64,000 bases of DNA from Phycisphaerae bacterium. Lineage in GTDB: Bacteria; Planctomycetota; Phycisphaerae; UBA1845; Fen-1342. A model generated the notes under the pieces. The model saw nothing but the letters and a program-made list of their open reading frames with translations, did not search any database and was not told the DNA's origin. The DNA is taken from contig JANQNU010000072.1 of NCBI GenBank assembly GCA_028279405.1, forward strand, positions 1 to 64,000, written 5' to 3'. A program made the translations under genes and the position numbers. Below, one piece after another: positions 20,379 to 39,094 of the stretch; the stretch's first letter is position 1; every line of letters begins with the position of its first letter.

Positions 20379-23300
20379 GTGACCGGCAAGACGCCGACCG
20401 AAACCCAGCACGAACCGATCGCAATCGTCGGAATGTCCAGCCTGTTCCCCGATGCCAGCGGGCTCAAGGCCTATTGGCGGTTGATCCGCAACGGACGGGA
20501 CGCTATTCGGGAAGTCCCGCCGACGCACTGGCACGCGAACGACTACCTCAGCGCCGATCCCAAGCAGGCGGACCACGTCTATTGTGCCCGGGGCGGCTTC
20601 CTCGATCCGACGCAATTCGATCCGCTCGCAAACGGCGTTCCGCCGACGACGCTCGAAGCGGTCGATACCGCGCAGCTCCTCGGCCTGACCGTCGCGCGAC
20701 GGGCGCTCGAGGACGCCGGCTACGGCGAAGATGCGACCTTCGACCGCGAGCGCACGTCGGTTGTTCTTGGCGTGACCGGCGCACTCGAGATGGTGGTTCC
20801 GCTCGGAGCGCGTCTCGGGCATCCGCACTGGCGCCGTGCCCTCGCTTCGGCCGGCGTCGATTCCGCGGTCGCGGAGCAGGTCATTCAGCAAATCAGCGAG
20901 TCGTACGTCGGCTGGCAAGAGAACTCCTTCCCCGGACTGCTGGGGAATGTCGTCGCGGGCCGGATCGCCAACCGCCTCAATCTACGGGGCACGAACTGCG
21001 TCGTCGATGCAGCTTGCGCCAGCTCGCTCAGCGCCGTGCACATGGCGATGATGGAGTTGCACACCGGCCGGACGGACATGGTCGTCACCGGCGGCGTCGA
21101 CACGTTTAATGACATTTTCATGTTCATGTGCTTCTCGCGCACCCAGGCGCTCTCAACGTCCGGCGACGCGCGCCCCTTCGATGCGGACGCCGACGGAACG
21201 GTTCTCGGCGAAGGGGTCGGCATGCTGGTGCTCAAGCGGCTCAGCGACGCGCAGCGCGACGGCGACGACATCTATGCCGTCATCCGCGGCGTCGGTACGT
21301 CCAGCGACGGCCGGTCGCAATCGATCTACGCGCCCGTCGCCGAGGGGCAGGGCCGAGCGCTGCGCGATGCCTACGCGGTCAGCGGCGTTTCGCCGGCCGA
21401 CGTCGATCTGGTGGAAGCGCACGGAACGGGGACCAAGGTTGGAGACGTGGTCGAGTTCGACGCGTTGCAGGAGGTCTTTAGCGAGGCATCTCCGGACCCG
21501 CGGTGGTGTGCGCTCGGGTCGGTCAAGGCCCAGATCGGACATGCGAAGGCGGCGGCCGGGGCAGCGAGTCTGATCAAGGCAGTGCTGGCCCTGCACCATC
21601 GGGTGATCCCGCCGACGATCAAGGTCGATGCGCCCAACCCCAAGCTCGCGGTGGATGACAGCCCGTTCTATCTGTCGACGGTCGCGCGGCCCTGGTTCCG
21701 ACCGGACGGGACGCCGCGCCGGGCGGGCGTCAGTTCGTTCGGCTTCGGCGGCAGCAACTTCCACGCCGTGGTCGAGGAATACCCGTGTGCGGATCGGGCG
21801 CCGGCCTGGGACGGCAGTGTGGAGATTCTGGCCTTCTCGGCGGGCAGCGAGGTTACCCTGACGGCAGCGCTGGAACAGTGGCGCGGAGCGTTGGAGACGG
21901 GCTTGTCGTCGGACGAGTTCTCTCGTCGAGCGGCTGAAACGCGGGCGAACTTCGCGCCGGATGCAGCCTGTCGGCTGACGCTCGTGCTGGGGCAGGAGGC
22001 CTCGCCGGCAGAGTTGATCGATCAGGCACTGGCGCTGCTTGCGGCGCGCGGTACGGCCCAGCCGTGGAACGTGCCGAACATTTACTTCGGTTGCGCCGCT
22101 CACGCGTCCGGCAAGCTTGCTTTTCTGTTTCCCGGTCAGGGCAGCCAGTACGTCGGCATGGGCCGCGATCTGGCGATGACATTCCCGGAGGCGCACGACG
22201 CGATCGCGGAAACGGATGCGATCTTCGGCGCCGACAGCGAGCCGCCGATCTCCGACACGATCTTTCCAGCGCCCACCTTCGACGCCGATCGGCAACAGGA
22301 GCAGGAGTCGGCGTTGCGACAGACGCACGCGACCCAGCCGGCGCTGGGCGCGGTCAGTCTGGCGATGCTGCGCGTGCTGTCCTGGTTCGGCGTCAGGCCC
22401 GACGCGGTTGCCGGCCACAGTTTCGGCGAACTGGTCGCACTGCGTGCGGCTGGGCGCGTCGGCGACGAGGCGTTGCGTGTCTTGTCGCGCTGGCGCGGCC
22501 GGTTCATGGGCGAAGGCGACGAGGATCGCGGCGCGATGGCGGCCGTGCAGGCGCCGCTTCACGAGATCGACGAACTGGTTCAACGCGAGGCGCTGGACGT
22601 CGTCGTGGCGAATCGCAACGCGCCAAACCAGGGGATCATCTCCGGGACGCGCGACGCGCTTGCCAACGCGCTCAAGCTGTGTAACGCTCGTGGTTGGCAG
22701 ACGCGGATGCTGAACGTTGCGGCCGCGTTCCACAGCCGACTGATGCACACGGCACAGGACAAGTTCGCCGCGGTGCTCAAGGAGATCGACTTTCATCCCG
22801 GCCAGTGCGCGGTACTCGCGAATTTGACGGGGCGTGAGTACCCGAACGATCCGGACGTGGCCCGCAAGCAGCTCGTCGAACAGATGACCAACCCGGTGCT
22901 GTTTGTCGAGGAGGTACGTCGGCTTTACGAGATGGGCGTTCGCACGTTCGTCGAAGTCGGCCCGAAGGCGACGCTCACGGGGCTGGTCCGCGCGATCCTG
23001 AACAACGAACGGTTCGAAGCTGCGGCGGTTGACGCGTCCGGCGGCCGCGGGCATGGCATCGTGGATCTCGCGAAGGTCCTGGCGCTGCTGGCCGTGCTCG
23101 GCTACCCGGTCGATCTGTCGGCGTGGGAAGCTCCCGAGCCGGCGCCGCCGGCGCCGAAGATGTCGGTCGCAATCTCCGGTGCGAACTATCGCGGTCAGCG
23201 CTCCGCCGACGCGGATCGCGTTGCCGCTCAACCCCCTGTTGCAGCTCAACCGACAAGAGGTGCCCCGGCAGTACCCGCGGGCGCGACAATGGCTGACGAC

Positions 23301-26300
23301 CCGGTGTCGATCCCGGCGCCAACGGCTCGTGGTGGAATCGATGATCCACGGAACGAACATTTGGACTCGAATGATCAGGCAGGAATCACGAAGATGACGA
23401 ACGCCAATGGAAATGGTATGCACACATCTACGACGGCCATGGGGGCATCGCCGCCAACGGCCGCGCCAACCTGGGCTGCAGATACCGAGGTCGGGAGCGT
23501 GCCTGCCGGGCCGGCGCGGGAAATCCCGCCGCCGCCGCCGCGCGCCGTCGCGCCCGATGCGGTTCAGCACGCGCTCGCGCTTGCCCATGAGGGCTTGCGA
23601 CTGATGCAGACTTTGCAGCAGCAGACAGCTCATGCCCACCAGCGCTTCCTCGACGGCCAGGAAGCGGCCCATCGCAGTTTTCAAATGGTGATCGAGAACC
23701 AGCAGCGTTTGCTGGAACGTGCCTGCGGTATGCCGGCGCGAGGCCCGGAACCGATGATCGGACAGGTTTCGCAGCCGACCGCGGCGCCTGCCCAGTCGAG
23801 CCCGGGTTATGCGAACGGCGTTTCCGGGGCACCTGCCTACCCGGCCCCGGTGGTTCCGGCGCAGCCCGCGCCGCAGCCCGTCGCGCAGACGTCGGTGGTT
23901 GAAACGAACGGGCATGGGGCGGAGGCTTCGACCGACGTGAGCTCGGGGCGGATGGCGTCGACCGGCGGACCGGACTTGGCGCCGGTCTCTACGGAAGCGC
24001 CGACAGTCCGCACGAATGGGCATGCGCCAAGCACGCCGGCCGCGGTGCCCGCGCAATCGGGAGCGGGCGTCGGGTTCGAACAGACGCTGCTCGAAGTCGT
24101 TGCGGAACTGACGGGTTATCCGGTCGACATGCTGAACGTCGACATGGATATGGAGGCTGACCTCGGGATCGATTCGATCAAGCGTTTGGAGATCCTATCC
24201 GCGGTTCAGGAGCGGATGCCCGAGCTTCCGCAGGTCGACTCGCAGTATGTCGGTAGCCTCCGCACATTGCAGAACATCATCGACTACATGACCGACCAGG
24301 AGTCCGCGGTTGTGGTCGGAGGGCCCCCCCCGGGAAAAGCGCATAGCGGTGCGGCACTCGCCGTACCGCATCAGACCGCACCGGCTGCGAGCGTAACGGA
24401 CGGGACCGCTTCTGCGGGCGTCCGTGCTGCCGACGATTCTGGTGATGCGTCGGGCTCGGTCGACAACGCGTCGACTGAGGCTGCATCGCAATCGGCCGTG
24501 GCCCCGACAGAGGCGATTGTTCCCGATACGGTCCGCCGCGTGCTGGGCGTTTCGGAATTGCCCGCGGCGCATCCGCGACGGGACCTATTGCCGCCTGAAT
24601 CGACAATTCTCGTGACGGACGACCGCGGTGGATTGGCCGAAGAGGTCGTCGCGCAGCTGGTCATGGAAGGCCTGAACGCACGGATCGTGCCGCTCGACGC
24701 CGGCCCGCGCCGCGATGCGTACGCCAACCTCGCCGGTTTGGTGATTGTGGCGCCAACGACGTACGGACCGCACGCGTCGGAAGCGGCGCTCGACAGTATC
24801 GAGTTTTTGAAGGCGGCGTTTCGGCTCGCGAAGTTCTACGGTCCGCACTTACAGCAGGCTGCTTCGCAACGGCCCGTGTTCTTCGCGACCGTTTCGCGGA
24901 TGGATGGCGCATTCGGCCTGATGGACGGCGCGTTCGACCCGGTGATGGGCGGTCTGGCCGGTCTGGCCAAGACGGCGGCTCACGAGTGGTCCGGCGTGGC
25001 TTGTCGCGCGCTCGACGTCGCGAGTGCCTGGTACAGTCTTTCGGACGCAGCGGGGGCGATCGCACGTGAGCTGTTAGCGGATGGGCCGCTCGAGGTCGGG
25101 CTTGATGCCGGGCAACGCCGAACGCTGGCGCTCGAGCAGCGCGAGACCGGTCGATTGCGTCCGCTGGAGTTGACGGCCCAGGACGTCATCGTGATCACCG
25201 GCGGCGCTCGCGGCGTCACGGCAGCGTGTGCAGAGGCGCTCGCGAAATCTTCCGACGCGACGTTGGCGCTGCTCGGGCGTTCGCCGGCACCGGTTGCAGA
25301 GCCCGCTTGGCTTGCACTCTCCGAGACCGAAGCACAGATGAAGCGCGCGTTGCTCGAGCACAGCGGTCGGCGCCTCAAGCCCGCCGAGTTGGAAGCGGAG
25401 TATCGGCGGTGGTCGGCGAACCGAGAAATCGCACGGACGCTCGAACACATTCGGGCTGCGGGTCGGAGTGTTGAGTACCACCGCGTCGACGTTCGCGACG
25501 CGGCCGTGATGGATGCGATCATTCACGATCTGCGGCAACGACATGGTCGGATTGCGGGGCTGATTCACGCGGCCGGCGTCATCGAGGATCGCTGGATCAC
25601 AGAGCAGGAGCAGGAACAGTTCGACCGCGTGTTCGATACCAAGGTCCTCGGCCTTTCGGCGCTGCTCGAAGCCACAGCGGAAGACGATCTGCAATTCGTT
25701 GCGCTGTTCTCCTCCGTGAGCGGTCGCTACGGTCGGCAGGGGCAGGTGGCATACGCGATGGCCAACGAGGTGCTCAACAAGACGGCCCAGCAGCTTGCGA
25801 CGCAACGCCCGCAATGCCGCATCGTCTCCATCGGATGGGGACCGTGGGACGGCGGCATGGTCACGAGCGCTCTCAAGCGTGAGTTTGCGCGCCTTGGCGT
25901 CGGGCTCGTTCCGTTGCGCGATGGTGCGGCACTGCTTGTGGAGGAGGTGCGGGCGCTCGCCGGGGCACCAACCGAAGTGCTGATCGGCGGCAGCTTCCCG
26001 CAGGCTGAGAACGCCGCTGAACCCGCGACAGCAACGGCTCCTTCTGCATCCGTGCCGTCCGAGGACCGCGAGATCGCAGCCGAGTTTAGCGTCTCCGTCG
26101 CCGAGCAACCGTGCCTTGTCGATCACGTGATCGACGGCCGACCGGTCGTGCCGTTGGCGTTGCTGCAGGAATGGCTGGCGGCATCCGCTGTCCACGCCAA
26201 CCCGGGTCTTCAGGTGTCGGCGGTTGAGGGTCTGCGTGTATTGAAGGGTGTCGTTCTCGATGGTGCGCCGCAACAAGTGCGGCTGTACACCAGCCCGGCG

Positions 26301-26933
26301 TTTCGGCGCGAGGACGGGTTTGCGGTCGACGCCGAATGCGTCAGTCTCGACGGCGGCCGCGCTGTACCGCGGGCCCGCGCGACGATCCTGCTGGCCGAGC
26401 AACTCGAGCCGGCGGACGCCGCCACGGTCGACTACGATCTTGCGGTCCATGCCTACGACGGCGGGCCGCAGCGGGCCTACGAGCAGGTCTTGTTTCACGG
26501 CGCGCGTTTCCAGGTCATCGAAGCGATCGAGGGTTGGTCCGAGTTTGGGTTGGTCGCGCGCGCCTGCGGTTCGACGCGGCCGGCCGACTGGCTCGCTACA
26601 CCCAATCGTTCGAGCTGGTTGATCGATCCGGCGATGGTGGATTCCGTCCTGCAGCTTGGGATCGTCTGGTGTGATGTTGCGCGGGAGTCACTTTGCCTGC
26701 CGAGCTATGTTGCGAGCCTGAAACGCTACCGCGCGTCCTTCCCGGACGAAGCAGTCGTCGTGCAGCTCCAGGTGCGCGACGTCATTCGCACGCAGTTGCG
26801 GGCCGATGCGCGGTTCATCGACGCCGATCAGCGCGTAATCGCCGAGATGCTTGGCATAGAGTGGACGATCGATGCCAACCTGCGCGATGCGTTCCAACGC
26901 CGGGCGCTGAGTACCGCCAACGCCGACGCGTAG
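20379..26933 (+). CDS. pfaA: PfaA-type PUFA synthase, KS-AT-ACP-KR-DH
   Basis: A 2184-aa megasynthase. GTG 20379 is preferred over the in-frame GTG 20355 because AGGGAGA lies six bases upstream. Domains: KS (12-465; catalytic C213 in DAACASS, H348, K383/H388); malonyl-type AT (about 578-880; S681 in GHSFGE); a long linker with a Gln-rich helical stretch (about 1075-1120, QEAAHRSFQMVIENQQRLL); one ACP (1229-1310; phosphopantetheine Ser S1266 in GIDSIKR); KR (about 1600-1850; TGGARG, Y1792 in YAMANE); and a PKS-type DH-like domain (1908-2180; H1916 in DHVIDGRPVVP). It makes the malonyl-primed, reduced and dehydrated intermediates of PUFA synthesis. Oddity: only one ACP, whereas known PfaA proteins have several in tandem. 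No Pfa phosphopantetheinyl transferase is in the window. Confidence 0.95.
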   Translation: MTGKTPTETQHEPIAIVGMSSLFPDASGLKAYWRLIRNGRDAIREVPPTHWHANDYLSADPKQADHVYCARGGFLDPTQFDPLANGVPPTTLEAVDTAQLLGLTVARRALEDAGYGEDATFDRERTSVVLGVTGALEMVVPLGARLGHPHWRRALASAGVDSAVAEQVIQQISESYVGWQENSFPGLLGNVVAGRIANRLNLRGTNCVVDAACASSLSAVHMAMMELHTGRTDMVVTGGVDTFNDIFMFMCFSRTQALSTSGDARPFDADADGTVLGEGVGMLVLKRLSDAQRDGDDIYAVIRGVGTSSDGRSQSIYAPVAEGQGRALRDAYAVSGVSPADVDLVEAHGTGTKVGDVVEFDALQEVFSEASPDPRWCALGSVKAQIGHAKAAAGAASLIKAVLALHHRVIPPTIKVDAPNPKLAVDDSPFYLSTVARPWFRPDGTPRRAGVSSFGFGGSNFHAVVEEYPCADRAPAWDGSVEILAFSAGSEVTLTAALEQWRGALETGLSSDEFSRRAAETRANFAPDAACRLTLVLGQEASPAELIDQALALLAARGTAQPWNVPNIYFGCAAHASGKLAFLFPGQGSQYVGMGRDLAMTFPEAHDAIAETDAIFGADSEPPISDTIFPAPTFDADRQQEQESALRQTHATQPALGAVSLAMLRVLSWFGVRPDAVAGHSFGELVALRAAGRVGDEALRVLSRWRGRFMGEGDEDRGAMAAVQAPLHEIDELVQREALDVVVANRNAPNQGIISGTRDALANALKLCNARGWQTRMLNVAAAFHSRLMHTAQDKFAAVLKEIDFHPGQCAVLANLTGREYPNDPDVARKQLVEQMTNPVLFVEEVRRLYEMGVRTFVEVGPKATLTGLVRAILNNERFEAAAVDASGGRGHGIVDLAKVLALLAVLGYPVDLSAWEAPEPAPPAPKMSVAISGANYRGQRSADADRVAAQPPVAAQPTRGAPAVPAGATMADDPVSIPAPTARGGIDDPRNEHLDSNDQAGITKMTNANGNGMHTSTTAMGASPPTAAPTWAADTEVGSVPAGPAREIPPPPPRAVAPDAVQHALALAHEGLRLMQTLQQQTAHAHQRFLDGQEAAHRSFQMVIENQQRLLERACGMPARGPEPMIGQVSQPTAAPAQSSPGYANGVSGAPAYPAPVVPAQPAPQPVAQTSVVETNGHGAEASTDVSSGRMASTGGPDLAPVSTEAPTVRTNGHAPSTPAAVPAQSGAGVGFEQTLLEVVAELTGYPVDMLNVDMDMEADLGIDSIKRLEILSAVQERMPELPQVDSQYVGSLRTLQNIIDYMTDQESAVVVGGPPPGKAHSGAALAVPHQTAPAASVTDGTASAGVRAADDSGDASGSVDNASTEAASQSAVAPTEAIVPDTVRRVLGVSELPAAHPRRDLLPPESTILVTDDRGGLAEEVVAQLVMEGLNARIVPLDAGPRRDAYANLAGLVIVAPTTYGPHASEAALDSIEFLKAAFRLAKFYGPHLQQAASQRPVFFATVSRMDGAFGLMDGAFDPVMGGLAGLAKTAAHEWSGVACRALDVASAWYSLSDAAGAIARELLADGPLEVGLDAGQRRTLALEQRETGRLRPLELTAQDVIVITGGARGVTAACAEALAKSSDATLALLGRSPAPVAEPAWLALSETEAQMKRALLEHSGRRLKPAELEAEYRRWSANREIARTLEHIRAAGRSVEYHRVDVRDAAVMDAIIHDLRQRHGRIAGLIHAAGVIEDRWITEQEQEQFDRVFDTKVLGLSALLEATAEDDLQFVALFSSVSGRYGRQGQVAYAMANEVLNKTAQQLATQRPQCRIVSIGWGPWDGGMVTSALKREFARLGVGLVPLRDGAALLVEEVRALAGAPTEVLIGGSFPQAENAAEPATATAPSASVPSEDREIAAEFSVSVAEQPCLVDHVIDGRPVVPLALLQEWLAASAVHANPGLQVSAVEGLRVLKGVVLDGAPQQVRLYTSPAFRREDGFAVDAECVSLDGGRAVPRARATILLAEQLEPADAATVDYDLAVHAYDGGPQRAYEQVLFHGARFQVIEAIEGWSEFGLVARACGSTRPADWLATPNRSSWLIDPAMVDSVLQLGIVWCDVARESLCLPSYVASLKRYRASFPDEAVVVQLQVRDVIRTQLRADARFIDADQRVIAEMLGIEWTIDANLRDAFQRRALSTANADA

Positions 26934-27007
26934 CACGCCGGGATTTCGACTCGCCGTCGATCGCACCGGTTGTCTTTCGCGCGCGTGTCGGCTGATGGGA
27001 ACGGATC

Positions 27008-30000
27008 ATGGGTAACGGTTCGAGATCCGAAACAGCGTTCTCTCCGATTGCGATTGTCGGGGCGGCGGGTGTCTATCCCGGCGCCGCAGACTATGCCGCG
27101 TTCGGGGATCTCGTGCTGCGCGGGAGCGACGTGGTGCGTGATGTGCCTGCCGAGCGCTGGATCGTCGATCCGTCGGCGGGCGTGTCGGATGCGCTCCAAC
27201 CCGACATGGCCTATGCACGACGCGCGTGCTTCATTGACGAGTTCCGTTGCGATCCACGTGGGCTCGAGATCGATCCCGAGCTGCTCGTCCAGTTGGACCC
27301 TGTGTTTCAGCTGGTGCTGCATGCTGGCCGGGACGCACTGGACGCGGCGCGCCAATCGTCTCTCGATCGCGACCGGGTTGGCGTGGCTCTCGCGGCGATC
27401 GCGCTGCCGACCGACGGTTCTTCGGCGATCACGCGGGAGATTCTCGGCCGTGACTTTCAGCGGCGTTTGCTGGGCCCAGGCGTTTCCGGTAGCGCGTTGC
27501 TCGCGTCGCGCACGCATCCGCTCAACAGTCGCGTCGTGGGCATGCCGGCCGGTCTGCTCGCCCGGGCACTCGGTCTCAACGCGGGCAGCTTTACCCTCGA
27601 TGCGGCCTGCGCCTCGAGCCTGTACGCGATCAAGCTCGCGTGCGATGCGCTCCAGTCAGGTCGCGCCGACGCGATGCTCGCGGGCGGCGTTTCGCGCCCC
27701 GAATCGCTCTACACGCAGGTCGGCTTCTCGCAACTTCGCGCCCTTTCTCGTAACGGTGTTTGTCGACCGTTCGATGCCGACGCCGACGGCTTGATCGTTG
27801 GCGAGGGCGCCGGTTTCGTCGTCCTCAAACGCCTCGATGATGCGTTGGCGAACGATGATCGAATCCTTGCCGTCATTCGCGGAATCGGGCTATCGAACGA
27901 CCTGGCCGGCAGTCTGATCGCCGCGGACAGCGAAGGGCAGCTGCGTGCGATGCGCGATGCGTACCGCGTCGCGGGTTGGCGGCCGAGCGATGTCGACCTG
28001 ATCGAGTGCCACGGCACGGGAACGCCGCTCGGCGACGCTGTCGAGTTCCGCAGCCTTCGAACGCTCTGGGGCGATTCGGGCTGGGAACGCGGGCAATGTG
28101 CGATCGGCTCCGTGAAGTCCCAGATCGGCCATCTGCTGACGGCTGCCGGTATCGCCGCAGTGCACAAGGTGCTGCAAGCCTTTGACCGCGCGACGGTGCC
28201 GCCGACGGCGAACTTCGTCCGTCCCAACCCGGAAATCGAACTCGACGCGAGCCCGTTCCACGTGCCGCAGGCGCCGCGGGCTTGGGAACGCCGAGACGCA
28301 GCGCTACCACGCCGGGCTGCTGTCAGTGCGTTCGGCTTCGGCGGGATCAACGCTCACCTGCTACTCGAAGAGCCGGGAACCGACCTTGCCGCGCCTCGAC
28401 TTTCGGACCAGGACCGTCCCGAGTCTCGGCGTCAAACGCATACGTTGCCGCCCCAAGCGAAGTCGGCGCCTTCGCGCGCCCCGAGTCACGCGGAACCGAT
28501 CGCGATTGTTGGATTAGCGGCTCAGCTCGGGCCGCATGCGACGCCCGACGCGCTGCGCCGAGTACTCTATTCGGGCACCGTACCGGCCCAATCGAACGCC
28601 GCCCGACGTTGGCAGGGCATCTCTCCCGAGACCGTCGTTCACGGTCGTGCAGGTCCCAGTGAATGCGCCGCCATCGACGCGCTCGAGGTTCCGGTCGGAC
28701 GTTTTCGCATCTCGCCGAACGAGATACCGCAGACGTTGCCGCAACAATTGCTCGCGTTGCAGGTGGTCGCGGACGCGCTGGCGGATGCCGGCAGCGAATC
28801 AACCGGGCCCGAAACACGCTCGGGCGCATTTGTCGGGATGGGCCTCGACCTGAACACGTCCAACTACCACCTGCGCTGGGTGATGCCGCGGCTTGCACGA
28901 GATTGGATCGGACAGCTCGGGCTGTCACTTTCTGACGCGGAGTTCGATGAATGGGTTGCGCAATTGCGCGACGCGGTCGGACCGGCCCTCAACGCGCCAC
29001 GCGTTCTCGGCAACCTCGGCGGCATGATCGCGAGCCGCATTGCGCGTGAGTTCCAGTTCGGCGGTGCGAGCTTCGGCGTCTCATCCGAAGAGACGTCCGG
29101 GCTCCGGGCGGCGGACATCGCGCTGAACGCCTTGCGGACCCATGAACTGGACCGCGCCGTGGTCTGCGCCACCGACCTGAGCGCCGATGTGCGCAACGTG
29201 ATCTGTACAGCACAGATGAGCGACCGCGGCCCAAACCAGTACGCGGTCGGCGAAGGCGCCGTAGCGCTGGTGCTCAAGCGACTTGTCGACGCCGAGCGCG
29301 ACGATGACCGGATTCATGCCGTCATGGCCGACGTGGTCATGGGGAGTGAGCGCGCGCCGTTGGAGGACGAATCAGCCATGGGCGCCGACCTGCTCATCGT
29401 TGACGGTCCGGTCGCGGAAACACCTGGCCTGTCGGCTCCGATTACGTTCCGACCAGCTTCGGTCATCGGGGACTGTGGTGCCGTGAGCGGTTTGGCGGCA
29501 ATGTTTGCCGGTGCGCTGTGCCTGGCGGACCAGACCGTTCCGGTTGCCGGCGTCGGTCCGCGTCATTGGGTGCGCAACCGCGCCGACGGGCCACGCCGAA
29601 CGCTTGTGCGAAGCCAAGGCCTCGACGGTACGTGCGCAACCGCAGTGCTTGTTGAGTACGAGCCCACCGACATCGACGGACCTGCGAAGCCGATCATTGG
29701 TGCGAGGGCGCGCGAAACGAGCGGCACCAGCGACGCGCACCAATTGTCGCATGTCGCTGAGGCCCGTCCCATCGCGGCGTTCGCGGTTCTTGGTGCCGAC
29801 CCTGCCGAGCTGGGTGCGGGGTTCGATGGCTTGGAGGCGCTGGTCGCGCGATCCTCGAGCGCGTCGATCGAGCGGTTGGCCGCCGAGTGGCATGCAATGA
29901 CGCGTTCGGCGGATCGCTCGGACACGCTGCGTGCGGCGTCGCTTGTCGCGCCGGATGTCGCGACGCTGCGTTCCCGGTTGGCAGACGTTCGTCAGCACCT

Positions 30001-33000
30001 GGTGGCGCATGCCGACGTCGCGCTGCGTCGGCGCGGGATGTACTACTCCCCGATGCCGGTCGGCGCGGATGCATCGGTCGCGTTCGTTTATCCCGGTTCG
30101 GGGAGTGACTATCCCGGGATGGGCGCCGCGGTGAGCCGATACTTCCCAGGTATCTTGCGAGCACAGGATCTGGAGACGGCTCGGCTGGCAGATCAGTTGC
30201 TGCCAGCGTACTACGCGAATGCGTCTACGCGGGGGGACAGCGAGGCGAGTGCGTCGGCGGCGGGCCCGGCCACGCTCGAGCAGATCCTCGGGCAGGTTGC
30301 TCACGGAATCGTGAACACGGACCTCTACCGGGCACTCGGCGTGATGCCGTCGGCCGCGATCGGATACAGCCTCGGTGAGACGGCGAGCCTCTTCGCGTTG
30401 CGCGCCTGGCAGGATTGGGAGGGCATGCTGCATCGGCTGCGGTCGTCGCCGTTGTTCCGGGTCGAACTTGCAGGGCCGTGCGACGCCGCTCGGCGGGCCT
30501 GGAAGCTGCCAGCGGACGAGCCGGTCGACTGGGTCGTGTACGCTGTCAATGCCGATGCGAAGCGGGTTCGTCGAGCGCTGGCCGCGTTCGAGCGGGCAGC
30601 GCTGCTGATCGTCAACGCGCCGGACGAGTGCGTGGTCGGCGGCCAACGGTCGCATGTTCGCCAGGTGCTCGAGGCGCTCGGCTGCGAGTCGATACCGCTG
30701 CATGGCGCGTCGACGGTGCATTGCGCGATTGCCGAGGAAGTGTCGGCGGACTATCTCGAACTACATCGGTTGCCGGTGACCGCGCCGGCCGATGTTCGTT
30801 TCTATTCGGCGGCCGATGCGTCTCCGTATGCGGTAACAACCGAGTCCGCGGCGCGGTCGATCTTTGCCCAGGCTCGCGATGGGTTTGATTTTCCGCAGGT
30901 GATCAACAGCGCCTACGATGACGGGGTGCGCGTTTTTCTCGAATGCGGGCCGGGTGCTTCCTGCACGCGGATGATTCGCAGGATCCTCGCGGGGCGGCCG
31001 CATCTCGCGCATTCGATCTGTCAGCCGAACGAGGATGGGCTGGAGACGATCATCAACACTGCGGCGTTGCTGGTTGCTGAGCGGGTGATCCCGGATCTGG
31101 GCGGTCTCTACGGTGAGGTATCGCATTTAGTCGTAAACGCCGGCGCGCCTGCTCCGACGGGGCACACGGTCACCGTGCCGATTGGCCGAGCGCCGTTCGC
31201 GCCGCCGATGCCCGTCGTACCGACGGCCGTCAGGGATGTTTCACGTGAAACGTCGCAGCCGACGACTGCGCCTGTGGCCGCGCAGCCCATGTCGGCGTCG
31301 CGGTCAGTGGCGGATTCGGCCGCGATTCCAGCGGTTCCGTCGGATCTGCCGCGCGAGGTTGCGTCGGCGTCGATGGCGGTCTCTGCTGCTCATGATCGTT
31401 TCCTGGCGTTCAGTGCGGGCGCGACGGGTACGCTCAGTGACCTGCTCGCGTGGCAGTCGTCGCTGCTCGAGCAGGCGCTCGGAAGTGAATCGCGTGGGCT
31501 CCCTGGTCTCTCGGCGGTAGCGTCGCCGACGACCGTCGCGCGCAACGATGTTTCACGTGAAACGGCGTTGACGGCCCCTCACGCGCCGCATCATGTTGCG
31601 GCCCCCGAGTCGGCGGTGGCGTTCACCCGCGAGCAATGCATGGAGTTCGCCATCGGCAAGGTCGGTAACGTGCTTGGTGCGATGTTCGCCGATGTTGATC
31701 GCTACCCGGTTCGCGTTCGGCTTCCGGACGAACCGCTGATGTTGGTCGATCGGATCGTGTCGATCACCGGCGAACCCGGCTCGTTGTCCAGCGGCCAGAT
31801 CGTTACCGAGCACGATGTTCATCCGGGCGCATGGTACCTCGACAACGACCGTGTGCCGGTGTGTATCTCAGTCGAGGCCGGCCAAGCGGATCTGTTCCTG
31901 TCGAGCTATCTCGGGATCGATCTCGCAGTCCGCGGCACGCGCGCCTACCGTTTGCTCGATGCTACGATTCAGTTTCATCGTGGCTTGCCGCGCTCAAACG
32001 ACCTGATTCGCTACGACATCCAGATCGACAAGTTCGTGCGACAAGGGGACGCGTACCTCTTCTTCTTCCGATTCGAAGGGACGATCGACGGTGCACCGTT
32101 CCTGTCGATGACCAACGGCTGTGCCGGGTTCTTCACGACCGAGGAGATCGAACGTTCCGGCGGCATCTTGCTGGGCCCGGATGAACAGGCGCCGACGCAC
32201 CGCGACAACATATCCGGCTTTCGGCCGCTGGTCGCGCAGCGACGTGAAGCGTACGACGAAGCCCGAATCGATGCCTTGCGTCGCGGTGATCTCAGTGCGT
32301 GCTTCGGTGCCCCGTTCGATGCGCTTCCGCTACAGCGCCCCGTTCGTCTTCCGGATGGACGAATGCGCCTGCTGCACCGGGTCATCGATCTCGATCCTGC
32401 GGGCGGGCCGTTCGGCCTCGGTCGAATCCGGGCGGAAGCCGACATTCATCCCGATGACTGGTTCCTGACGTGTCACTTCGTCGACGACATGGTCATGCCG
32501 GGCACACTGATGTACGAGTGTTGCGCTCATACGTTGCGCGTGCTGCTGCTTCGACTGGGCTGGGTCGCGGAACATGATCAGGTAGCTTATGAGCCCGTGG
32601 TCGGCGTGCCGGCGAAGCTCAAGTGTCGCGGTCCGGTGACGCGTGACACGCGTGTCGTTACCTATCAGGTGGACGTGAAGGAAATCGGCTATCGGCCGGA
32701 GCCGTACGTGATCGCGGACGCGCTCATGCTGGCCGACGGTCGGCCGATCGTGACGTTCACCGATATGTCGATGCAACTCACCGGCATGACGCGCGAGATG
32801 ATCGAGTCCGTGTGGAACGCGACGGACGTTTCGAACACTGGCGGGCAAGCCGCCAGTGCCACCCAAACAGGGCAAGCCGCCGGTGCCACCCAGCAGGTGT
32901 CGCCGATCGGTGACGTCGCGGTGTCGGCGGGCGCGCTGCCGGGCTTGTACACGTTTGAACAGATTCGTGCTTTTGCGAACGGCCGACCATCGGACGCGTT

Positions 33001-34159
33001 CGGTGCCCCGTATTCGGTCTTCGATACGGATCGGCGAATCGCTCGGCTGCCGGGTCCGCCGTACCAGTTCCTGGACCGCATCACGCGGATCGATGGTTGT
33101 CAGCCATTCGTACTGGAAGCGACCGGCTGGATCGAAGGGCAGTATGACGTGCCGCGCGATGCGTGGTACTTCGCCGCCAATCGGCAAGCGTCGATGCCGT
33201 TCGCCGTACTGCTGGAGGTGGCGTTGCAGCCGTGCGGGTGGCTGGCGGCGTATCTCGGGTCGGCGCTGCGGAGCGGTGAGGATCTTTCGTTCCGCAATCT
33301 CGGCGGATCGGCCACCCAGTTGGCTGAGGTGTTCGCGGATGTCGGAACGCTGACGACCCGCGTGCGGCTGACCAGCGTTGCAGAGGCCGGGGGAATGATC
33401 ATCCAGAAGTTCGACATGCAGGTGTGGGCCGGCGCGAATTGCGTGTATGACGGCGATACCAGCTTCGGATTCTTCACATCCGCAGCACTTGCGGATCAGG
33501 TCGGGATTCGCGGAGCGTCCGACCGCGCATATGTGCCGAATGCGGACGAGTTGGATCGAGCGCAATCGTTCGCGCTGCCCGACGATCCACCGTGGACGCC
33601 GAGTGATGCCGGCGGCGAACCGACCCCGACAACTAACGACGTGACGGCGCGTGTCACGTCGGCCGTTACCCTGTCGACACCGGCGCATCTGAGCGGCGCG
33701 GCGCAACAGCAGATGCCGACGCGGGCGTTTCGCATGGTCGATCAGGTCGATCTGTGGATTCCGGACGGCGGACCGCAGGGGCTGGGTTTCATTCGTGGCA
33801 GCAAATCCGTGCGGCCGGAAGAGTGGTTCTTCCAGGCGCATTTCTACCAGGATCCGGTCTGTCCCGGTTCGCTCGGGCTCGAGTCGCTGCTTCAGTTGTT
33901 GAAGGTGGTCGCGTTGCACCGGTGGGGGGGGCATGCTTCGGAGACGCACCGGTTCGAGCCGATACGCTTGTTCGCGCCCCATACGTGGATCTACCGCGGG
34001 CAGATCATTCCGGCGAACTTGCGGGTCGAGGTCGACGCATCGATCACGCGCATCGACGACGGGCCGGTGCCGACGATCGTGGCTGACGGGTTCCTGCGGG
34101 TCGACGGCAAGTATATCTATGAGATGACGGACTTTGGCGTGCGGATGGTTCCACGATAG
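27008..34159 (+). CDS. pfaC: PfaC-type PUFA synthase with built-in AT, KS-CLF-AT-DH-DH
   Basis: A 2383-aa megasynthase. Domains: KS (about 14-460; C201, H335, K370, H375); CLF (about 495-930; E695 replaces the catalytic Cys, as expected for a chain-length factor); a PfaB-like AT (about 1020-1360; S1121 in GYSLGE); and two FabA-like double-hotdog dehydratases (about 1541-1935 with H1823 in CHFVDDMVMPG, and 1975-2383 with H2278 in AHFYQD). The FabA-type DHs set and retain the skipped cis double bonds. The order pfaD, KS-AT-ACP-KR-DH, KS-CLF-AT-DH-DH resembles the three-gene sets known from myxobacteria, but there is no C-terminal acyltransferase. The AT-DH linker holds two parS-like sites, and the DH-DH linker holds an intergenic repeat in frame. 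The stop touches the oleA ATG (TAGATG). Confidence 0.94.
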   Translation: MGNGSRSETAFSPIAIVGAAGVYPGAADYAAFGDLVLRGSDVVRDVPAERWIVDPSAGVSDALQPDMAYARRACFIDEFRCDPRGLEIDPELLVQLDPVFQLVLHAGRDALDAARQSSLDRDRVGVALAAIALPTDGSSAITREILGRDFQRRLLGPGVSGSALLASRTHPLNSRVVGMPAGLLARALGLNAGSFTLDAACASSLYAIKLACDALQSGRADAMLAGGVSRPESLYTQVGFSQLRALSRNGVCRPFDADADGLIVGEGAGFVVLKRLDDALANDDRILAVIRGIGLSNDLAGSLIAADSEGQLRAMRDAYRVAGWRPSDVDLIECHGTGTPLGDAVEFRSLRTLWGDSGWERGQCAIGSVKSQIGHLLTAAGIAAVHKVLQAFDRATVPPTANFVRPNPEIELDASPFHVPQAPRAWERRDAALPRRAAVSAFGFGGINAHLLLEEPGTDLAAPRLSDQDRPESRRQTHTLPPQAKSAPSRAPSHAEPIAIVGLAAQLGPHATPDALRRVLYSGTVPAQSNAARRWQGISPETVVHGRAGPSECAAIDALEVPVGRFRISPNEIPQTLPQQLLALQVVADALADAGSESTGPETRSGAFVGMGLDLNTSNYHLRWVMPRLARDWIGQLGLSLSDAEFDEWVAQLRDAVGPALNAPRVLGNLGGMIASRIAREFQFGGASFGVSSEETSGLRAADIALNALRTHELDRAVVCATDLSADVRNVICTAQMSDRGPNQYAVGEGAVALVLKRLVDAERDDDRIHAVMADVVMGSERAPLEDESAMGADLLIVDGPVAETPGLSAPITFRPASVIGDCGAVSGLAAMFAGALCLADQTVPVAGVGPRHWVRNRADGPRRTLVRSQGLDGTCATAVLVEYEPTDIDGPAKPIIGARARETSGTSDAHQLSHVAEARPIAAFAVLGADPAELGAGFDGLEALVARSSSASIERLAAEWHAMTRSADRSDTLRAASLVAPDVATLRSRLADVRQHLVAHADVALRRRGMYYSPMPVGADASVAFVYPGSGSDYPGMGAAVSRYFPGILRAQDLETARLADQLLPAYYANASTRGDSEASASAAGPATLEQILGQVAHGIVNTDLYRALGVMPSAAIGYSLGETASLFALRAWQDWEGMLHRLRSSPLFRVELAGPCDAARRAWKLPADEPVDWVVYAVNADAKRVRRALAAFERAALLIVNAPDECVVGGQRSHVRQVLEALGCESIPLHGASTVHCAIAEEVSADYLELHRLPVTAPADVRFYSAADASPYAVTTESAARSIFAQARDGFDFPQVINSAYDDGVRVFLECGPGASCTRMIRRILAGRPHLAHSICQPNEDGLETIINTAALLVAERVIPDLGGLYGEVSHLVVNAGAPAPTGHTVTVPIGRAPFAPPMPVVPTAVRDVSRETSQPTTAPVAAQPMSASRSVADSAAIPAVPSDLPREVASASMAVSAAHDRFLAFSAGATGTLSDLLAWQSSLLEQALGSESRGLPGLSAVASPTTVARNDVSRETALTAPHAPHHVAAPESAVAFTREQCMEFAIGKVGNVLGAMFADVDRYPVRVRLPDEPLMLVDRIVSITGEPGSLSSGQIVTEHDVHPGAWYLDNDRVPVCISVEAGQADLFLSSYLGIDLAVRGTRAYRLLDATIQFHRGLPRSNDLIRYDIQIDKFVRQGDAYLFFFRFEGTIDGAPFLSMTNGCAGFFTTEEIERSGGILLGPDEQAPTHRDNISGFRPLVAQRREAYDEARIDALRRGDLSACFGAPFDALPLQRPVRLPDGRMRLLHRVIDLDPAGGPFGLGRIRAEADIHPDDWFLTCHFVDDMVMPGTLMYECCAHTLRVLLLRLGWVAEHDQVAYEPVVGVPAKLKCRGPVTRDTRVVTYQVDVKEIGYRPEPYVIADALMLADGRPIVTFTDMSMQLTGMTREMIESVWNATDVSNTGGQAASATQTGQAAGATQQVSPIGDVAVSAGALPGLYTFEQIRAFANGRPSDAFGAPYSVFDTDRRIARLPGPPYQFLDRITRIDGCQPFVLEATGWIEGQYDVPRDAWYFAANRQASMPFAVLLEVALQPCGWLAAYLGSALRSGEDLSFRNLGGSATQLAEVFADVGTLTTRVRLTSVAEAGGMIIQKFDMQVWAGANCVYDGDTSFGFFTSAALADQVGIRGASDRAYVPNADELDRAQSFALPDDPPWTPSDAGGEPTPTTNDVTARVTSAVTLSTPAHLSGAAQQQMPTRAFRMVDQVDLWIPDGGPQGLGFIRGSKSVRPEEWFFQAHFYQDPVCPGSLGLESLLQLLKVVALHRWGGHASETHRFEPIRLFAPHTWIYRGQIIPANLRVEVDASITRIDDGPVPTIVADGFLRVDGKYIYEMTDFGVRMVPR
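31237..31252. promoter_or_regulatory. parS-like ParB-binding site 1
   Basis: TGTTTCACGTGAAACG matches the bacterial parS consensus (ending A in place of G) at 15 of 16 positions and contains the perfect 14-bp palindrome GTTTCACGTGAAAC. It lies inside pfaC, in the flexible AT-DH linker, read in frame as Asp-Val-Ser-Arg-Glu-Thr. Confidence 0.85.
31549..31564. promoter_or_regulatory. parS-like ParB-binding site 2
   Basis: A second identical TGTTTCACGTGAAACG, 312 bases after the first, is again in the AT-DH linker of pfaC and again encodes Asp-Val-Ser-Arg-Glu-Thr. Two copies this close are typical of parS clusters. Confidence 0.85.
32836..32893. repeat. Family A repeat inserted in frame in pfaC
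   Basis: CACTGGCGG-GCAAG-CCGCCAGTG (32836-32858) with its usual CCACCC flank, followed by a second half copy (GGCAAGCCGCCGGTGCCACCC), lies inside the pfaC frame between the two DH didomains. It encodes about 21 residues rich in Gly, Ala, Gln and Thr (about 1942-1962) and keeps the frame. Confidence 0.9.
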
Positions 34160-35200
34160 ATGCAGTTTACGCGAACGTACATCGAATCGATCGGCTACGA
34201 TCTGGCGCCGCATACGGTCACCTCCGTCGAGTTGGAGGAGCGGATCGCGTCGGTGCTGGAGCGACTCCGAATCCCGCGGGGACAGCTCGAAGCGCTCACG
34301 GGAATTCGCGAGCGCCGGTGGTGGAGTCCCGGCCAGAGCATGCACGAGCCGGCGGCGCGTGCGGGGCGCCGGGCGCTCCAGGAGGCCGGTATCGCGCCGA
34401 ACGCGCTGGGCATGCTGATTTACGCCGGGGTTTGCCGGGACAACCTGGAACCGGCCACCGCGTGCGCTGTCGCGGATGCGTTAGATGTACCGAGCGATTG
34501 TCGCGTGTTCGACATCTCGAACGCGTGTCTCGGGGTGATGAACGGCATTGTCCAGGTGGCCACGGCGATCGAGTTGGGGCATGTTCGAGCGGGACTGGTC
34601 GTGTCGTGCGAGTCGGCGCGGCAAATCGTCGACCTGATGATCGATCGGCTGCTACACGAACCGAGCATGGAGCGCTTCAAGACGACGCTGGCGACGCTCA
34701 CCGGCGGGTCGGGTGCGATTGGCGTGCTGGTTGTCGACGAGTCGCTTAGCACGCGCGGCCATCGGCTGCTCGGCGGCGTGCTCCGCAACAGCGTTCGGCA
34801 TCATCGCTTGTGTCGTTGGGGGCCCGACAGTGGGGTCCCGACCAGCGGTCCACAGATCATGGAAACGCACGCGATCGGCGTGCTCGAGCACGGTGTCGAA
34901 CTGGGCATCGAAACCTGGAACGCTTTTCGACCGGCTGTCGAGTGGCCTGCGGATGCTCCTGACAAAGTCATCTGCCATCAGGTCGGGTCGGCGAACCGAG
35001 ACGCGATTCTGCGCGCGATCCAGATACCCGTCGAGCGCGATTTCTCGACCTATCCGTACCTTGGCAACATCGGCACAGTATCGCTACCGATCTCGGCTGC
35101 GATTGCGGAGCAGCGCGGGTTCCTGCAACAGGGTGACCGTGTCGGAATGCTCGGCATCGGCAGCGGTCTTAACTGCATCATGCTCGGTGTCGAATGGTGA
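34160..35200 (+). CDS. oleA: OleA, thiolase-family head-to-head condensing enzyme
   Basis: A 346-aa thiolase-superfamily enzyme that joins two fatty acyl thioesters by non-decarboxylative Claisen condensation to a 2-alkyl-3-ketoacyl product. Seen: C123 in ISNACLGV, H273 in CHQVG and N303 in LGNIGT form the catalytic set. E97 in CRDNLEPATA matches the Glu that OleA proteins use as base and that FabH enzymes lack, which separates it from FabH. Its ATG directly follows the pfaC stop, so translation is probably coupled. That position points to PUFA-synthase products as its substrates (inference). Confidence 0.93.
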   Translation: MQFTRTYIESIGYDLAPHTVTSVELEERIASVLERLRIPRGQLEALTGIRERRWWSPGQSMHEPAARAGRRALQEAGIAPNALGMLIYAGVCRDNLEPATACAVADALDVPSDCRVFDISNACLGVMNGIVQVATAIELGHVRAGLVVSCESARQIVDLMIDRLLHEPSMERFKTTLATLTGGSGAIGVLVVDESLSTRGHRLLGGVLRNSVRHHRLCRWGPDSGVPTSGPQIMETHAIGVLEHGVELGIETWNAFRPAVEWPADAPDKVICHQVGSANRDAILRAIQIPVERDFSTYPYLGNIGTVSLPISAAIAEQRGFLQQGDRVGMLGIGSGLNCIMLGVEW

Positions 35201-35244
35201 ATGTAAGATAGGCAGGTCGCGCGTGGCTCGGACGACCAGGTGAA

Positions 35245-36276
35245 ATGCAAGTGAACGACGAACTACTTCGCAAACACTTCGACTTCAAGCGGAACTGGCT
35301 TACGCTACCGGAGCCGGCATCGGCGGGAAATCCGCGCGGCGACACGGTGTCAAAGGACCGATCGTCGTTGAGAATGCACTATGTTGACGAGGGTGTCGGC
35401 GCGCCGGTGATCTGCGTGCACGGCAATCCGACCTGGTCGTTCTACTACCGCGACGTGATCAACGCGCTGCGCGCGACCCACCGAGTCATCGCGCCCGATC
35501 ACATTGGCTGCGGGCTGTCCGACAAGCCGGACGACACGCGGTATTCGTACACACTGGCGCAGCGTGTGGCCGATCTGGAGGCGCTGCTCGACCACCTGGA
35601 GCTGCACGAAAACCTGAGCTTCGTCGTTCACGATTGGGGTGGGATGATCGGTTTGGCCGCCGCGCTCCGCAGGCGGTCGGCAGTGGCGCGGGTGGTCGTG
35701 CTCAACACGGCGGCGTTCCGTAATCCGAAGGGGCTCCGCTTGCCGTGGCCGCTCTGGTTCGTGCGGAACGTCCCGTGGCTGGCGAACCCGATGATTCTCG
35801 GCGGAAACGCGTTCGTGCGCGGGACGTTGCGGTACGGTGCACGACGTCCACTGGGGGCCGAGATCGCTGCGTGCTATCGGTTGCCGTACGATTCGTGGGC
35901 GAACCGACGCGCGACGTTGCGTTTCGTACAGGACATCCCGATCGTGTCGACCGATGCGAGTTACTCGCTGGTGCAATGGACCGACGAACAGCTGGATGCG
36001 CTGCGAGCAGTTCCAATGCTCGTGTGCTGGGGACGGCGCGACTTCGTCTTCGACGATGCGTTCCTCGCGGAATGGCGCACGCGGATGCCGCATGCGGACG
36101 TGCATGCATTTCCGGACGCGGGCCACCTGGTGCTGGAGGACGCGCGTGAACAGGCGATTCCGCTCATCAGCGCGTTTGTTCGGGATGCGCGGCCGGCCGT
36201 CGTCGCCAAATCGGTGGCGCCGATCGGCGAGCGCTCGACGAACACGGATCAAGCAGTCAGGCAGCACGTAAGATGA
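35245..36276 (+). CDS. oleB: OleB, beta-lactone decarboxylase (alpha/beta hydrolase)
   Basis: A 343-aa alpha/beta-hydrolase resembling haloalkane dehalogenases. The oxyanion motif is CVHGNPTWSFYYRD, nucleophile D130 is in HDWGG and catalytic H294 is in DAGHLVLED. OleB enzymes of this shape decarboxylate the cis-beta-lactone made by OleC to the final cis-olefin. The family likeness alone would also allow a dehalogenase; the oleA-B-C-D context decides it. It overlaps oleC by four bases (ATGA). The C-terminal 35 residues are polar and probably disordered. Confidence 0.93.
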   Translation: MQVNDELLRKHFDFKRNWLTLPEPASAGNPRGDTVSKDRSSLRMHYVDEGVGAPVICVHGNPTWSFYYRDVINALRATHRVIAPDHIGCGLSDKPDDTRYSYTLAQRVADLEALLDHLELHENLSFVVHDWGGMIGLAAALRRRSAVARVVVLNTAAFRNPKGLRLPWPLWFVRNVPWLANPMILGGNAFVRGTLRYGARRPLGAEIAACYRLPYDSWANRRATLRFVQDIPIVSTDASYSLVQWTDEQLDALRAVPMLVCWGRRDFVFDDAFLAEWRTRMPHADVHAFPDAGHLVLEDAREQAIPLISAFVRDARPAVVAKSVAPIGERSTNTDQAVRQHVR

Positions 36277-38075
36277 ACACGGTTCAGTCAACGGCAGCGG
36301 GCGCTGCATCGACGGCGACCGTCGACCGGCGTACAGCGTGCGTCAACATCGCGGATCGGCTGCGCGAGATGGCGTCCCGTTATCCGGGCAAGCCGGCCGT
36401 GGTCATGGCCGACGGGCGGGGATCGACCGGTGCAATGACGTTCAGTGGCCTGCAAGGTGAGGTCGAAGTTCTTGCCCGCGGACTGTCGCGTGCTGGAGTG
36501 CGGCGCGGTATGCGGACGATCCTGTTCGTCAAGCCGGGGCCGGAGTTCTTCGCGTTGACGTTTGCGCTCTTTCGAATCGGTGCGGTTCCGGTGCTGATCG
36601 ATCCGGGGATCGGACGACAGCAGATGAGCCGCTGTTTGCGCGAGGTCGACGCGCAGGCATTCATCGGTATCCCGTTGGCGCATGTCTTTCGGTTGCTTTA
36701 CAAGCGCCTGTTCGCGAAGCTGGAGGTCGTGGTCACGGTCGGTCGGCGCTGGTGCTGGGGCGGGCTGAACCTGGCTCGTGTTCGGGCGCTGGGCGTTTCA
36801 GGGGCAGACGCCGCTGATGACACAGTGGAAACGGACGCTGACGATCCGGCAGCGATTCTCTTCACCAGCGGAAGCACGGGCCCTGCGAAGGGCGTGGTCT
36901 ATACGCACGGTATATTCGACGCGCAGGTCGACTATCTGCAGTCGCACTACGGTTACGGCCCGGAGGAGGTTGACCTGCCGACGTTCCCGCTTTTTGCGCT
37001 GTTCGACGCCGCGCTGGGGATGACAGCGGTGATTCCGCGGATGGACTTCACGCGACCGGGCGCGGTTGACCCACGGCGGATCGTGGCGGCAATCGAGGCG
37101 CATGGCTGCACGCACATGTTCGGCTCCCCGGCGCTGCTCAAGCGTGTAGCGGCGCATGGCGTCGAGCGCCACGTTCGTTGTACGTCGATCAAACGCGTGA
37201 TCACCGCAGGTGCACCGATCCCGCCAAGCGTCCTGGGCGACATGCATCGGATTATCGCTGAGGATGGAGAGGTGTTTACGCCGTACGGTGCGACGGAGTC
37301 GTTGCCGGTATGTTCGATCGGCAGTCGGGAGATCCTGCGCGAGACAGCCGAGCGGACGGAACAGGGGGCCGGCACCTGCGTCGGTCGACCGCTCGCGGGG
37401 ATCGACGTGCGGATCATCCCGATCTCGGACACACCGATCGGCGCGTGGTCTGACGACTTGTCGCTCCCGAGCGGCGAAATCGGCGAAGTGGCCGTGCGTG
37501 GCCCGATCGTGACGCGCGAATACTGGAACAATGCCTCGGCGACGGATCACGCGAAGATTCGCGATGACAATCAGATCTGGCATCGGATGGGCGATCTTGG
37601 CTGGCTGGACGGAGCGGGTCGGTTGTGGTTCTGTGGTCGCAAGGCACACCGCGTCGTCGTCGGTGCCGCTGAAACAGTGGGACCAGTGACGGGCGGAGTC
37701 GCAGACGATGCGGGTGGTACGTCCGTGCCGGCGACGAAGTACGCGGATCGGGTGTTGTTTACCGTGCCGTGCGAGGCGATCTTCAATCAGCACCCGGCGG
37801 TGGCCCGATCGGCACTGGTCGGCGTGCCGGCGGGAAACAGCTCGTCCCAAGTCGCGGTGATCTGCGTCGAACTTACGGAGCAACATCGAAGCTTCGATCG
37901 CGAACAGTTACGGTCGGAGTTGCTGAAACGGGCGGCGCAACATCCGCACACGCGCCCGATCCGACACGTGCTCGTTCACCCACGGTTTCCCGTGGACGTC
38001 CGGCACAACGCGAAGATCTTCCGCGAGAAGCTCGCTGTCTGGGCGACGCGCAGCCTCGGAAGCGTCGGCTCATGA
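36273..38075 (+). CDS. oleC: OleC, beta-lactone synthetase (AMP-forming)
   Basis: A 600-aa member of the acyl-adenylate-forming (ANL) superfamily that cyclises the 2-alkyl-3-hydroxy acid to a beta-lactone using ATP. Seen: the phosphate loop FTSGSTGPAKGVVYTHG (about residue 197), the ITAGAPIP strand, the adenine motif YGATESLPV, and a C-terminal lid domain with the hinge near MGDLGWLD and WFCGRKAHRV. A short variable insert (about 465-490, Gly/Val/Thr-rich) sits in the lid. It overlaps oleB and oleD by four bases each. Confidence 0.93.
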   Translation: MNTVQSTAAGAASTATVDRRTACVNIADRLREMASRYPGKPAVVMADGRGSTGAMTFSGLQGEVEVLARGLSRAGVRRGMRTILFVKPGPEFFALTFALFRIGAVPVLIDPGIGRQQMSRCLREVDAQAFIGIPLAHVFRLLYKRLFAKLEVVVTVGRRWCWGGLNLARVRALGVSGADAADDTVETDADDPAAILFTSGSTGPAKGVVYTHGIFDAQVDYLQSHYGYGPEEVDLPTFPLFALFDAALGMTAVIPRMDFTRPGAVDPRRIVAAIEAHGCTHMFGSPALLKRVAAHGVERHVRCTSIKRVITAGAPIPPSVLGDMHRIIAEDGEVFTPYGATESLPVCSIGSREILRETAERTEQGAGTCVGRPLAGIDVRIIPISDTPIGAWSDDLSLPSGEIGEVAVRGPIVTREYWNNASATDHAKIRDDNQIWHRMGDLGWLDGAGRLWFCGRKAHRVVVGAAETVGPVTGGVADDAGGTSVPATKYADRVLFTVPCEAIFNQHPAVARSALVGVPAGNSSSQVAVICVELTEQHRSFDREQLRSELLKRAAQHPHTRPIRHVLVHPRFPVDVRHNAKIFREKLAVWATRSLGSVGS

Positions 38076-39094
38076 CGCAATCGAAGGCCGGGCCGGTCGC
38101 ACTCGTTACCGGTGGCGGGGGGTTTCTCGGCCAGGCGGTCGTCGAGCACCTGGTTGCCGACGGATGTCGCGTGCGGAGCCTGTCGCGCGGAGATTATCCG
38201 GCGCTGGCTGCGCTCGGCGTCGAGCATATCCGAGCACCGTTGACCGATGCGGCGGCAGTCCGGTCGGCCTGTGCGGGCGTGGACGTGGTCTATCATGTCG
38301 CGGCAAAGGCCGGGTTGGGTGGAAGATACGCCGACTATGTTGACGCCAATGTGCGCGGCACCGAGGTGATCCTCGATGCATGCCGGCATGCGGGGATCGG
38401 CCGGCTCGTGTACACAAGTTCGCCGAGCGTGGTATTCGACGGATCGGATATGGAAGGTGCGGACGAGTCGGCCTCGTACCCGGCGCACTATCATTCGCAC
38501 TACAGTGCGACAAAGGCGCTCGGGGAGCAGGCGGTGTTGGCGGCGAACGATTCCTCGCTGCGAACGTTGGCGCTGCGGCCGCACCTGATCTGGGGGCCCC
38601 GGGACAACCACATTCTGCCGCGGATCGTCGCGCGGGCGCGGTCCGGAAGGCTGCGGATCGTCGGCGACGGGCAGAATCGCGTCGATACCGTTTACGTCGA
38701 CAACGCGGCGGAAGTGCACCTGTGCGCGGCGCGGGCGCTTGATGCGGAGCCGCAATCGTCCGGGCGGGCTTACTTCATCAGCAACGACGAGCCGGTCAAC
38801 GCGTGGGATTTCATCAATCGGCTGCTGGCGGTCGCCGGTGTTGCGCCGGTGCGCAAGCGGATTTCGCGGCGTGCGGCACGCAGTGTCGGCGCCGTGTGCG
38901 AATGGCTATGGACCGTTTTGCCACTTTCCGGCGAGCCGCCGATGACGCGTTTCCTGGCCGACGAGCTGTCGACGTCTCACTGGTTCGACATCTCGGCGGC
39001 GCGCCAACTGCTCGGGTACTCGCCGCGCGTGTCGCTGGATGAAGGATTGGGGCGTCTGCAGGCCTGGTTGCGCGACGAAGAATCGCGGCAATAG
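38072..39094 (+). CDS. oleD: OleD, NADPH-dependent 2-alkyl-3-ketoacid reductase
   Basis: A 340-aa extended short-chain dehydrogenase. The nucleotide motif VTGGGGFLGQAVVEHL is at residue 12, and the catalytic Y144 and K148 are in YSATK. Start ATG 38072 overlaps the oleC stop. OleD reduces the 2-alkyl-3-ketoacid from OleA before OleC acts. With oleA-C all four genes of the olefin pathway are present and apparently intact. The order A-B-C-D is the reverse of nothing unusual; the close coupling shows that they work as a set. Confidence 0.92.
   Translation: MTQSKAGPVALVTGGGGFLGQAVVEHLVADGCRVRSLSRGDYPALAALGVEHIRAPLTDAAAVRSACAGVDVVYHVAAKAGLGGRYADYVDANVRGTEVILDACRHAGIGRLVYTSSPSVVFDGSDMEGADESASYPAHYHSHYSATKALGEQAVLAANDSSLRTLALRPHLIWGPRDNHILPRIVARARSGRLRIVGDGQNRVDTVYVDNAAEVHLCAARALDAEPQSSGRAYFISNDEPVNAWDFINRLLAVAGVAPVRKRISRRAARSVGAVCEWLWTVLPLSGEPPMTRFLADELSTSHWFDISAARQLLGYSPRVSLDEGLGRLQAWLRDEESRQ

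Follow-up and report, generated by a model that had tools for sequence, protein, structure and literature searches.

Known parS systems

In many bacteria, the well-studied ones among them, parS sites are located near the replication origin, and both the clustering of the sites at the origin and the variation in their number are stated as open questions (PMC7333895). Streptomyces chromosomes carry a mean of 22.8 parS sites and as many as 65, of which about 45% lie in a 50-kb island at the origin and most of the others near oriC (PMC8743542). In Pseudomonas aeruginosa and Caulobacter crescentus, extra parS sites are not tolerated at distances beyond about 600 kb from the origin. Scattered sites are used by Noc of Bacillus, a ParB-family protein that binds at many places on the chromosome.

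The window analyzed here, a stretch of 64,000 nucleotides from a Phycisphaerae bacterium, contains two parS-type sequences within a gene for a PfaC-like synthase. As in chromosomal ParABS systems, the sites have the 14-bp core GTTTCACGTGAAAC with a pyrimidine and a purine as the adjoining bases, and the genome possesses ParB, a ParA-like ATPase and cores in and near parB. It departs from those systems in that the core has 27 copies that range across no less than a third of the genome, TTGCGC half-sites accompany about half of the copies, and parA and parB are unlinked. High copy number is common to this genome and Streptomyces, whereas concentration at the origin is a feature of Streptomyces that is not seen here. 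The scatter resembles that of Noc binding sites (NBS), but the core and the specificity residues differ and the protein is of the ParB type. Dispersed dyads are likewise known as REP, BIME or MITE-like palindromes, and in two related genomes (G020 and G186) the copies do occur within longer repeats; the source genome differs in having no homology past about 34 bp, a near-invariant core and three copies that arose in situ. High parS copy number is known already, and the larger finding is a set that is genome-wide, apparently selected and partly extended; three further genera of the order show a similar parS expansion. No description of dispersed parS in planctomycetes was found in the open-access literature, the coverage of which was incomplete.

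The two core sites in pfaC

Both copies of the 16-mer TGTTTCACGTGAAACG reported in the initial annotation are exact and lie 312 bases apart on the same strand (Table 1). No copy arises in 100 dinucleotide shuffles of the window, and the window has no further site within three mismatches of TGTTTCACGTGAAACA. Chance would place 0.00008-0.002 copies of the 14-bp core in 64 kb, depending on the Markov order, which supports the view that the two are parS-type sequences beyond chance. They are read in frame 0 of the synthase gene, where VSRET forms residues 1411-1415 at site 1 and 1515-1519 at site 2, and the peptide DVSRET given by the annotation is encoded at each. With an identity of 35-38% between their 60-bp flanks, the two sites did not arise by recent copying of one from the other. 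The dyad at site 2 reads CAACGAT-core-GGCGTTG, and site 1 is without clear arms.

Table 1. Positions of the core sites and of the gene that holds them (coordinates of the window)
Feature	Position	Strand	Remarks
parS-type site 1, TGTTTCACGTGAAACG	31237..31252, core 31238-31251	+	encodes D-V-S-R-E-T; weak outer arms
parS-type site 2, TGTTTCACGTGAAACG	31549..31564, core 31550-31563	+	encodes D-V-S-R-E-T
Extended 28-bp dyad at site 2, CAACGATGTTTCACGTGAAACGGCGTTG	31543..31570	.	exact extended-motif match
PfaC-like multidomain synthase, 2383 aa	27008..34159	+	2 ketosynthase-type domains, acyltransferase, 4 FabA-like dehydratase stretches
Variable AT-DH linker, residues 1366-1540	31103..31627	+	holds both sites; alignment of 73 orthologues
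Conserved AHDRFLAFSA segment within the linker	31388..31417	+	between the sites; alignment of 73 orthologues

The placement of the sites in a tolerant AT-DH linker, also proposed at the outset, agrees with the domain matches and with an alignment of 73 pfaC orthologues. The AT match stops at about residue 1325 and the conserved DH resumes at about residue 1541, and column occupancy and identity are low at both core positions. MAGs of Phycisphaerae and other Planctomycetota make up most of the closest pfaC relatives by identity. The sites themselves are not conserved in orthologous linkers, a point that the annotation had wished to see checked: an exact core is present in 0 of 73, which rules out parallel conservation of the core in pfaC and leaves regulation of the lipid operon unsupported. 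The best reading is that pfaC is an incidental, permissive host, and nothing links the core sites to lipid synthesis. Among 80 pfaC-bearing loci there is a single core, an exact one in a planctomycete MAG (PLA4; L042:17176), which lies about 6 kb downstream of the pfaC match and outside predicted genes.

The core in the genome and in relatives

The source genome is an assembly of 5.63 Mb in 92 unordered contigs that is 95.5% complete, and the window lies within contig C91. A whole-genome pattern search finds 27 exact cores on 21 of the 92 contigs, compared with a genome-wide expectation of about 0.01-0.17 and with no match to a reversed control pattern in the same genome. Allowing one mismatch adds just three sites. 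By our count, 16 of the 27 exact cores carry the pfaC-type 16-mer in one orientation. At L022:8144-8240 (from G000:C23:151143 on), a pair of exact cores spaced by 42 bp precedes a third, one-mismatch copy, GTTTCACGTGGAAC.

Across 397 genomes of the same class, the core is mostly present 0-3 times per genome. The outliers are G020 with 61 copies, G186 with 51, G233 with 34 and the source genome, and the next-highest counts are 9, 9, 7, 6 and 6. Genera with 27-61 cores number four, that of the source genome included, and share a single order with genera having 0-3. Where a relative has one or two cores, the core adjoins parB: in the low-count genomes for which both could be located (G012, G014 and G016), the cores are within about 2 kb of parB. 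An order that holds both kinds of genera offers a natural experiment on the form of the bacterial centromere and the limits of its spread.

The extended dyad and the origin of the sites

Alignment of the flanks of the sites reveals a longer dyad, GCGCAAnnnY-GTTTCACGTGAAAC-RnnnTTGCGC. Its CAA...TTG form (at most one mismatch) accompanies 14 of 27 sites in the source genome and 57 of 61 in G020; altogether 9 of 114 genomes from the order contain it, and it is absent from all 34 cores of G233. The left and right variable bases of the dyad do not covary in the three genomes compared. This favours a DNA site that is read by a protein over a hairpin, and suggests that the dyad consists of two half-sites recognized independently; a hairpin or RNA function is thus unsupported. 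Arms that lack a core show no excess over a control pattern, which rules out the arm as an independent element. Outer-arm positions are off consensus in about 20-30% of half-sites, and the core is nearly invariant. That damaged cores are nearly absent while the arms vary points to maintenance of the core by selection.

It is possible that the cores belong to a mobile or REP/MITE-like palindrome that spread through the genome and was inserted into the pfaC linker. In G020 and G186, cores are embedded in longer dispersed repeats, as such an element predicts. Linkers hold sites in DNA polymerase I (between the 5'-3' and 3'-5' exonuclease domains), in parB itself and in pfaC. Several linker sites encode one peptide, N-[DN]-VSRET-[AS]-L, although the proteins are unrelated, which is what copying of a 28-mer would produce. 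The flanks in the source genome tell against it, since beyond the dyad they give 9 similar pairs where random stretches give 6-13, and nothing is common to the sites beyond about 34 bp. So do the lack of an excess of core-less arms and the near absence of damaged cores. Moreover, three sites in conserved domains, those of DAHP synthase, the HscB J-domain and a formate-dehydrogenase-like protein, align to known structures without an indel, and the PYKLVSRE of the DAHP synthase site is found in 1rzm as well. Ungapped spelling of this kind indicates substitution, with no insertion, and judging from these alignments the three domain-embedded sites arose in that way; the argument covers these three and does not extend to sites in linkers, the two in pfaC included. 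Taken with these points, a mobile palindrome is an unlikely source of the set. Some sites would instead have arisen by substitution where this is tolerated, namely in intergenic DNA, in flexible linkers and at VSRE-like motifs.

In two of the relatives, the repeats have features of their own. Within longer dispersed repeats of G186 (L205-L218), the scattered cores often form pairs whose spacing of 31-32 bp amounts to about three helical turns. Most cores of G020 (L118-L153) carry, on one side, about 60 bp of conserved sequence, GACGCAAA...GGAGATTGGCGGATTT, a tail that resembles a dispersed repeat.

ParB, a ParA-like ATPase and DnaA

The lack of a parB gene had been named in the initial annotation as grounds against its reading. 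The genome encodes one ParB of the chromosomal type, the single protein above the TIGR00180 cut-off (match at C52:3213-3734), and cores are located beside its gene at C52:2589, 2792 and 3139 (C52:2589-3152), the last of them inside parB. The protein aligns with Spo0J, ParB and Noc structures across the N-terminal and DNA-binding domains, and it has at its N-terminus LGRGLDALL, a motif typical of chromosomal ParB. By our residue mapping it retains the counterparts of R173 and G201, residues that are absolutely conserved in ParB orthologues (Jalal et al.). The DNA-contact positions Q162 and K171 are occupied by A and E, and E at the position of Caulobacter ParB K171 is common to ParB proteins of this family (L016, L180-L190), those of relatives included. 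A ParA-like ATPase is encoded at C74:37147 (E 4e-53 to PF13614, under the NCBIfam ParA equivalog cut-off); its gene is unlinked to parB and lies about 5 kb from mreB (L294, G000:C74:30000-42000).

These residues bear on a Noc-like role, in which ParB or another reader of the core marks the nucleoid for division or membrane attachment and partition is secondary. Such a role would account for scatter of the kind found for Bacillus Noc sites. The core, however, is that of parS and not the Noc site, the protein has R and G where Noc would have Q173 and R201, and its N-terminus is of the ParB type, and we regard a primary Noc-like role as distinctly unlikely.

Two DnaA-family genes score above the curated cut-off (G000:C92:25327-26592 and G000:C28:16769-18046), and the copy on C28 is about 5.7 kb from the core inside hscB. 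In the window, between 40000 and 56000, the sign of the GC skew flips near 44 kb with gene orientation, and this is not read as an origin signal.

Distribution of the sites and proposed distributed ParB loading

A lower bound on the span of the set can be derived from the sizes of all 92 contigs if the 21 core-bearing contigs are taken as adjacent. Even under this arrangement the cores span 1.887 Mb, or 33.5% of the genome. In 2000 simulations, arcs of up to 2 Mb never reach 21 contigs; the corresponding p-values are 0.002 for an arc of 3 Mb and 0.05 for a uniform scatter, which fits the data. The minimum span and the simulations together indicate that the set is dispersed, covering at least a third of the chromosome and probably all of it. 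Alternatively, a second replicon may carry core sites.

The annotation had placed the lipid operon in a ParB-loaded origin region. According to that explanation, the pfa operon is near oriC and its sites belong to the usual origin domain, which would agree with the core sequence, with the presence of parB and with the origin-near parS of many bacteria. The genome-wide search for the 16-mer that it proposed returned many scattered copies, the outcome it had set beforehand as contrary to this claim. With cores on 21 contigs, most of them would not lie within a few hundred kilobases of oriC, the simulations leave no room for a cluster of up to 2 Mb, and contig C91 has no match to parB, parA or dnaA. 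The origin-domain claim for the pfa locus thereby loses support, and we consider it very improbable. Scarcely credible is the idea that the cores are operators for a transcription factor that recognizes the same sequence as parS, regulation of the lipid operon included: intergenic DNA holds more sites than expected (10 of 25 site loci in a genome that is 15% non-coding, p=0.0025, with approximate gene calls from a home-made codon-usage caller), but about half or more are inside genes, convergent pairs of genes holding sites are at least as frequent as divergent ones (19:11 over six genomes, p=0.10, not significant), which leaves a promoter operator unsupported, the host genes have no common pathway, and orthologous pfaC genes lack the core.

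The pfaC sites are thus probably ParB-binding parS, two members of a dispersed, genome-wide set of at least 27 that would serve distributed loading of ParB. On this model the 14-16 bp core is where ParB dimers would bind before closing into CTP clamps and sliding onto neighbouring DNA. About half of the sites have outer TTGCGC half-sites, which probably raise affinity or help define the element. With sites distributed across a third or more of the chromosome, loading of ParB, and probably of SMC too, would occur at many chromosomal places and not at the origin alone. Distributed loading of this type would serve to anchor or compact the chromosome or to segregate it in bulk. Binding by ParB is likely from the sequences of site and protein, while its occupancy, SMC loading and the cellular role of the set are what we infer from it. 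Several observations count against distributed loading at parS, namely the residues A and E that this ParB family has in place of Q162 and K171, the lack of clear arms at site 1 in pfaC, and the conflict between a dispersed set and the 600-kb rule of P. aeruginosa and C. crescentus. The same conflict with the origin-proximity rule makes the lineage worth study. We suggest tentatively, as a possibility and not as the expected outcome, that some planctomycete lineages are polycentric, with ParB at tens of selected sites, segregation and SMC loading distributed in a 'holocentric-like' manner and the origin-proximity rule broken, and that an extended TTGCGC parS co-evolved in one family.

The lipid operon

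In principle, ParB might affect pfa transcription locally, since in P. aeruginosa raised ParB reportedly leads to stronger repression of the promoters beside parS3 and parS4 (PMC5521831); the present sequence results lend such an effect no support. In the window, genes for PfaA-like and PfaC-like proteins are followed by OleA-, OleB-, OleC- and OleD-like genes, all co-directional on the plus strand (20379-39094). OleB and OleD are called from the appearance of their sequences, and the products of the operon may include long-chain polyunsaturated hydrocarbons besides PUFA.
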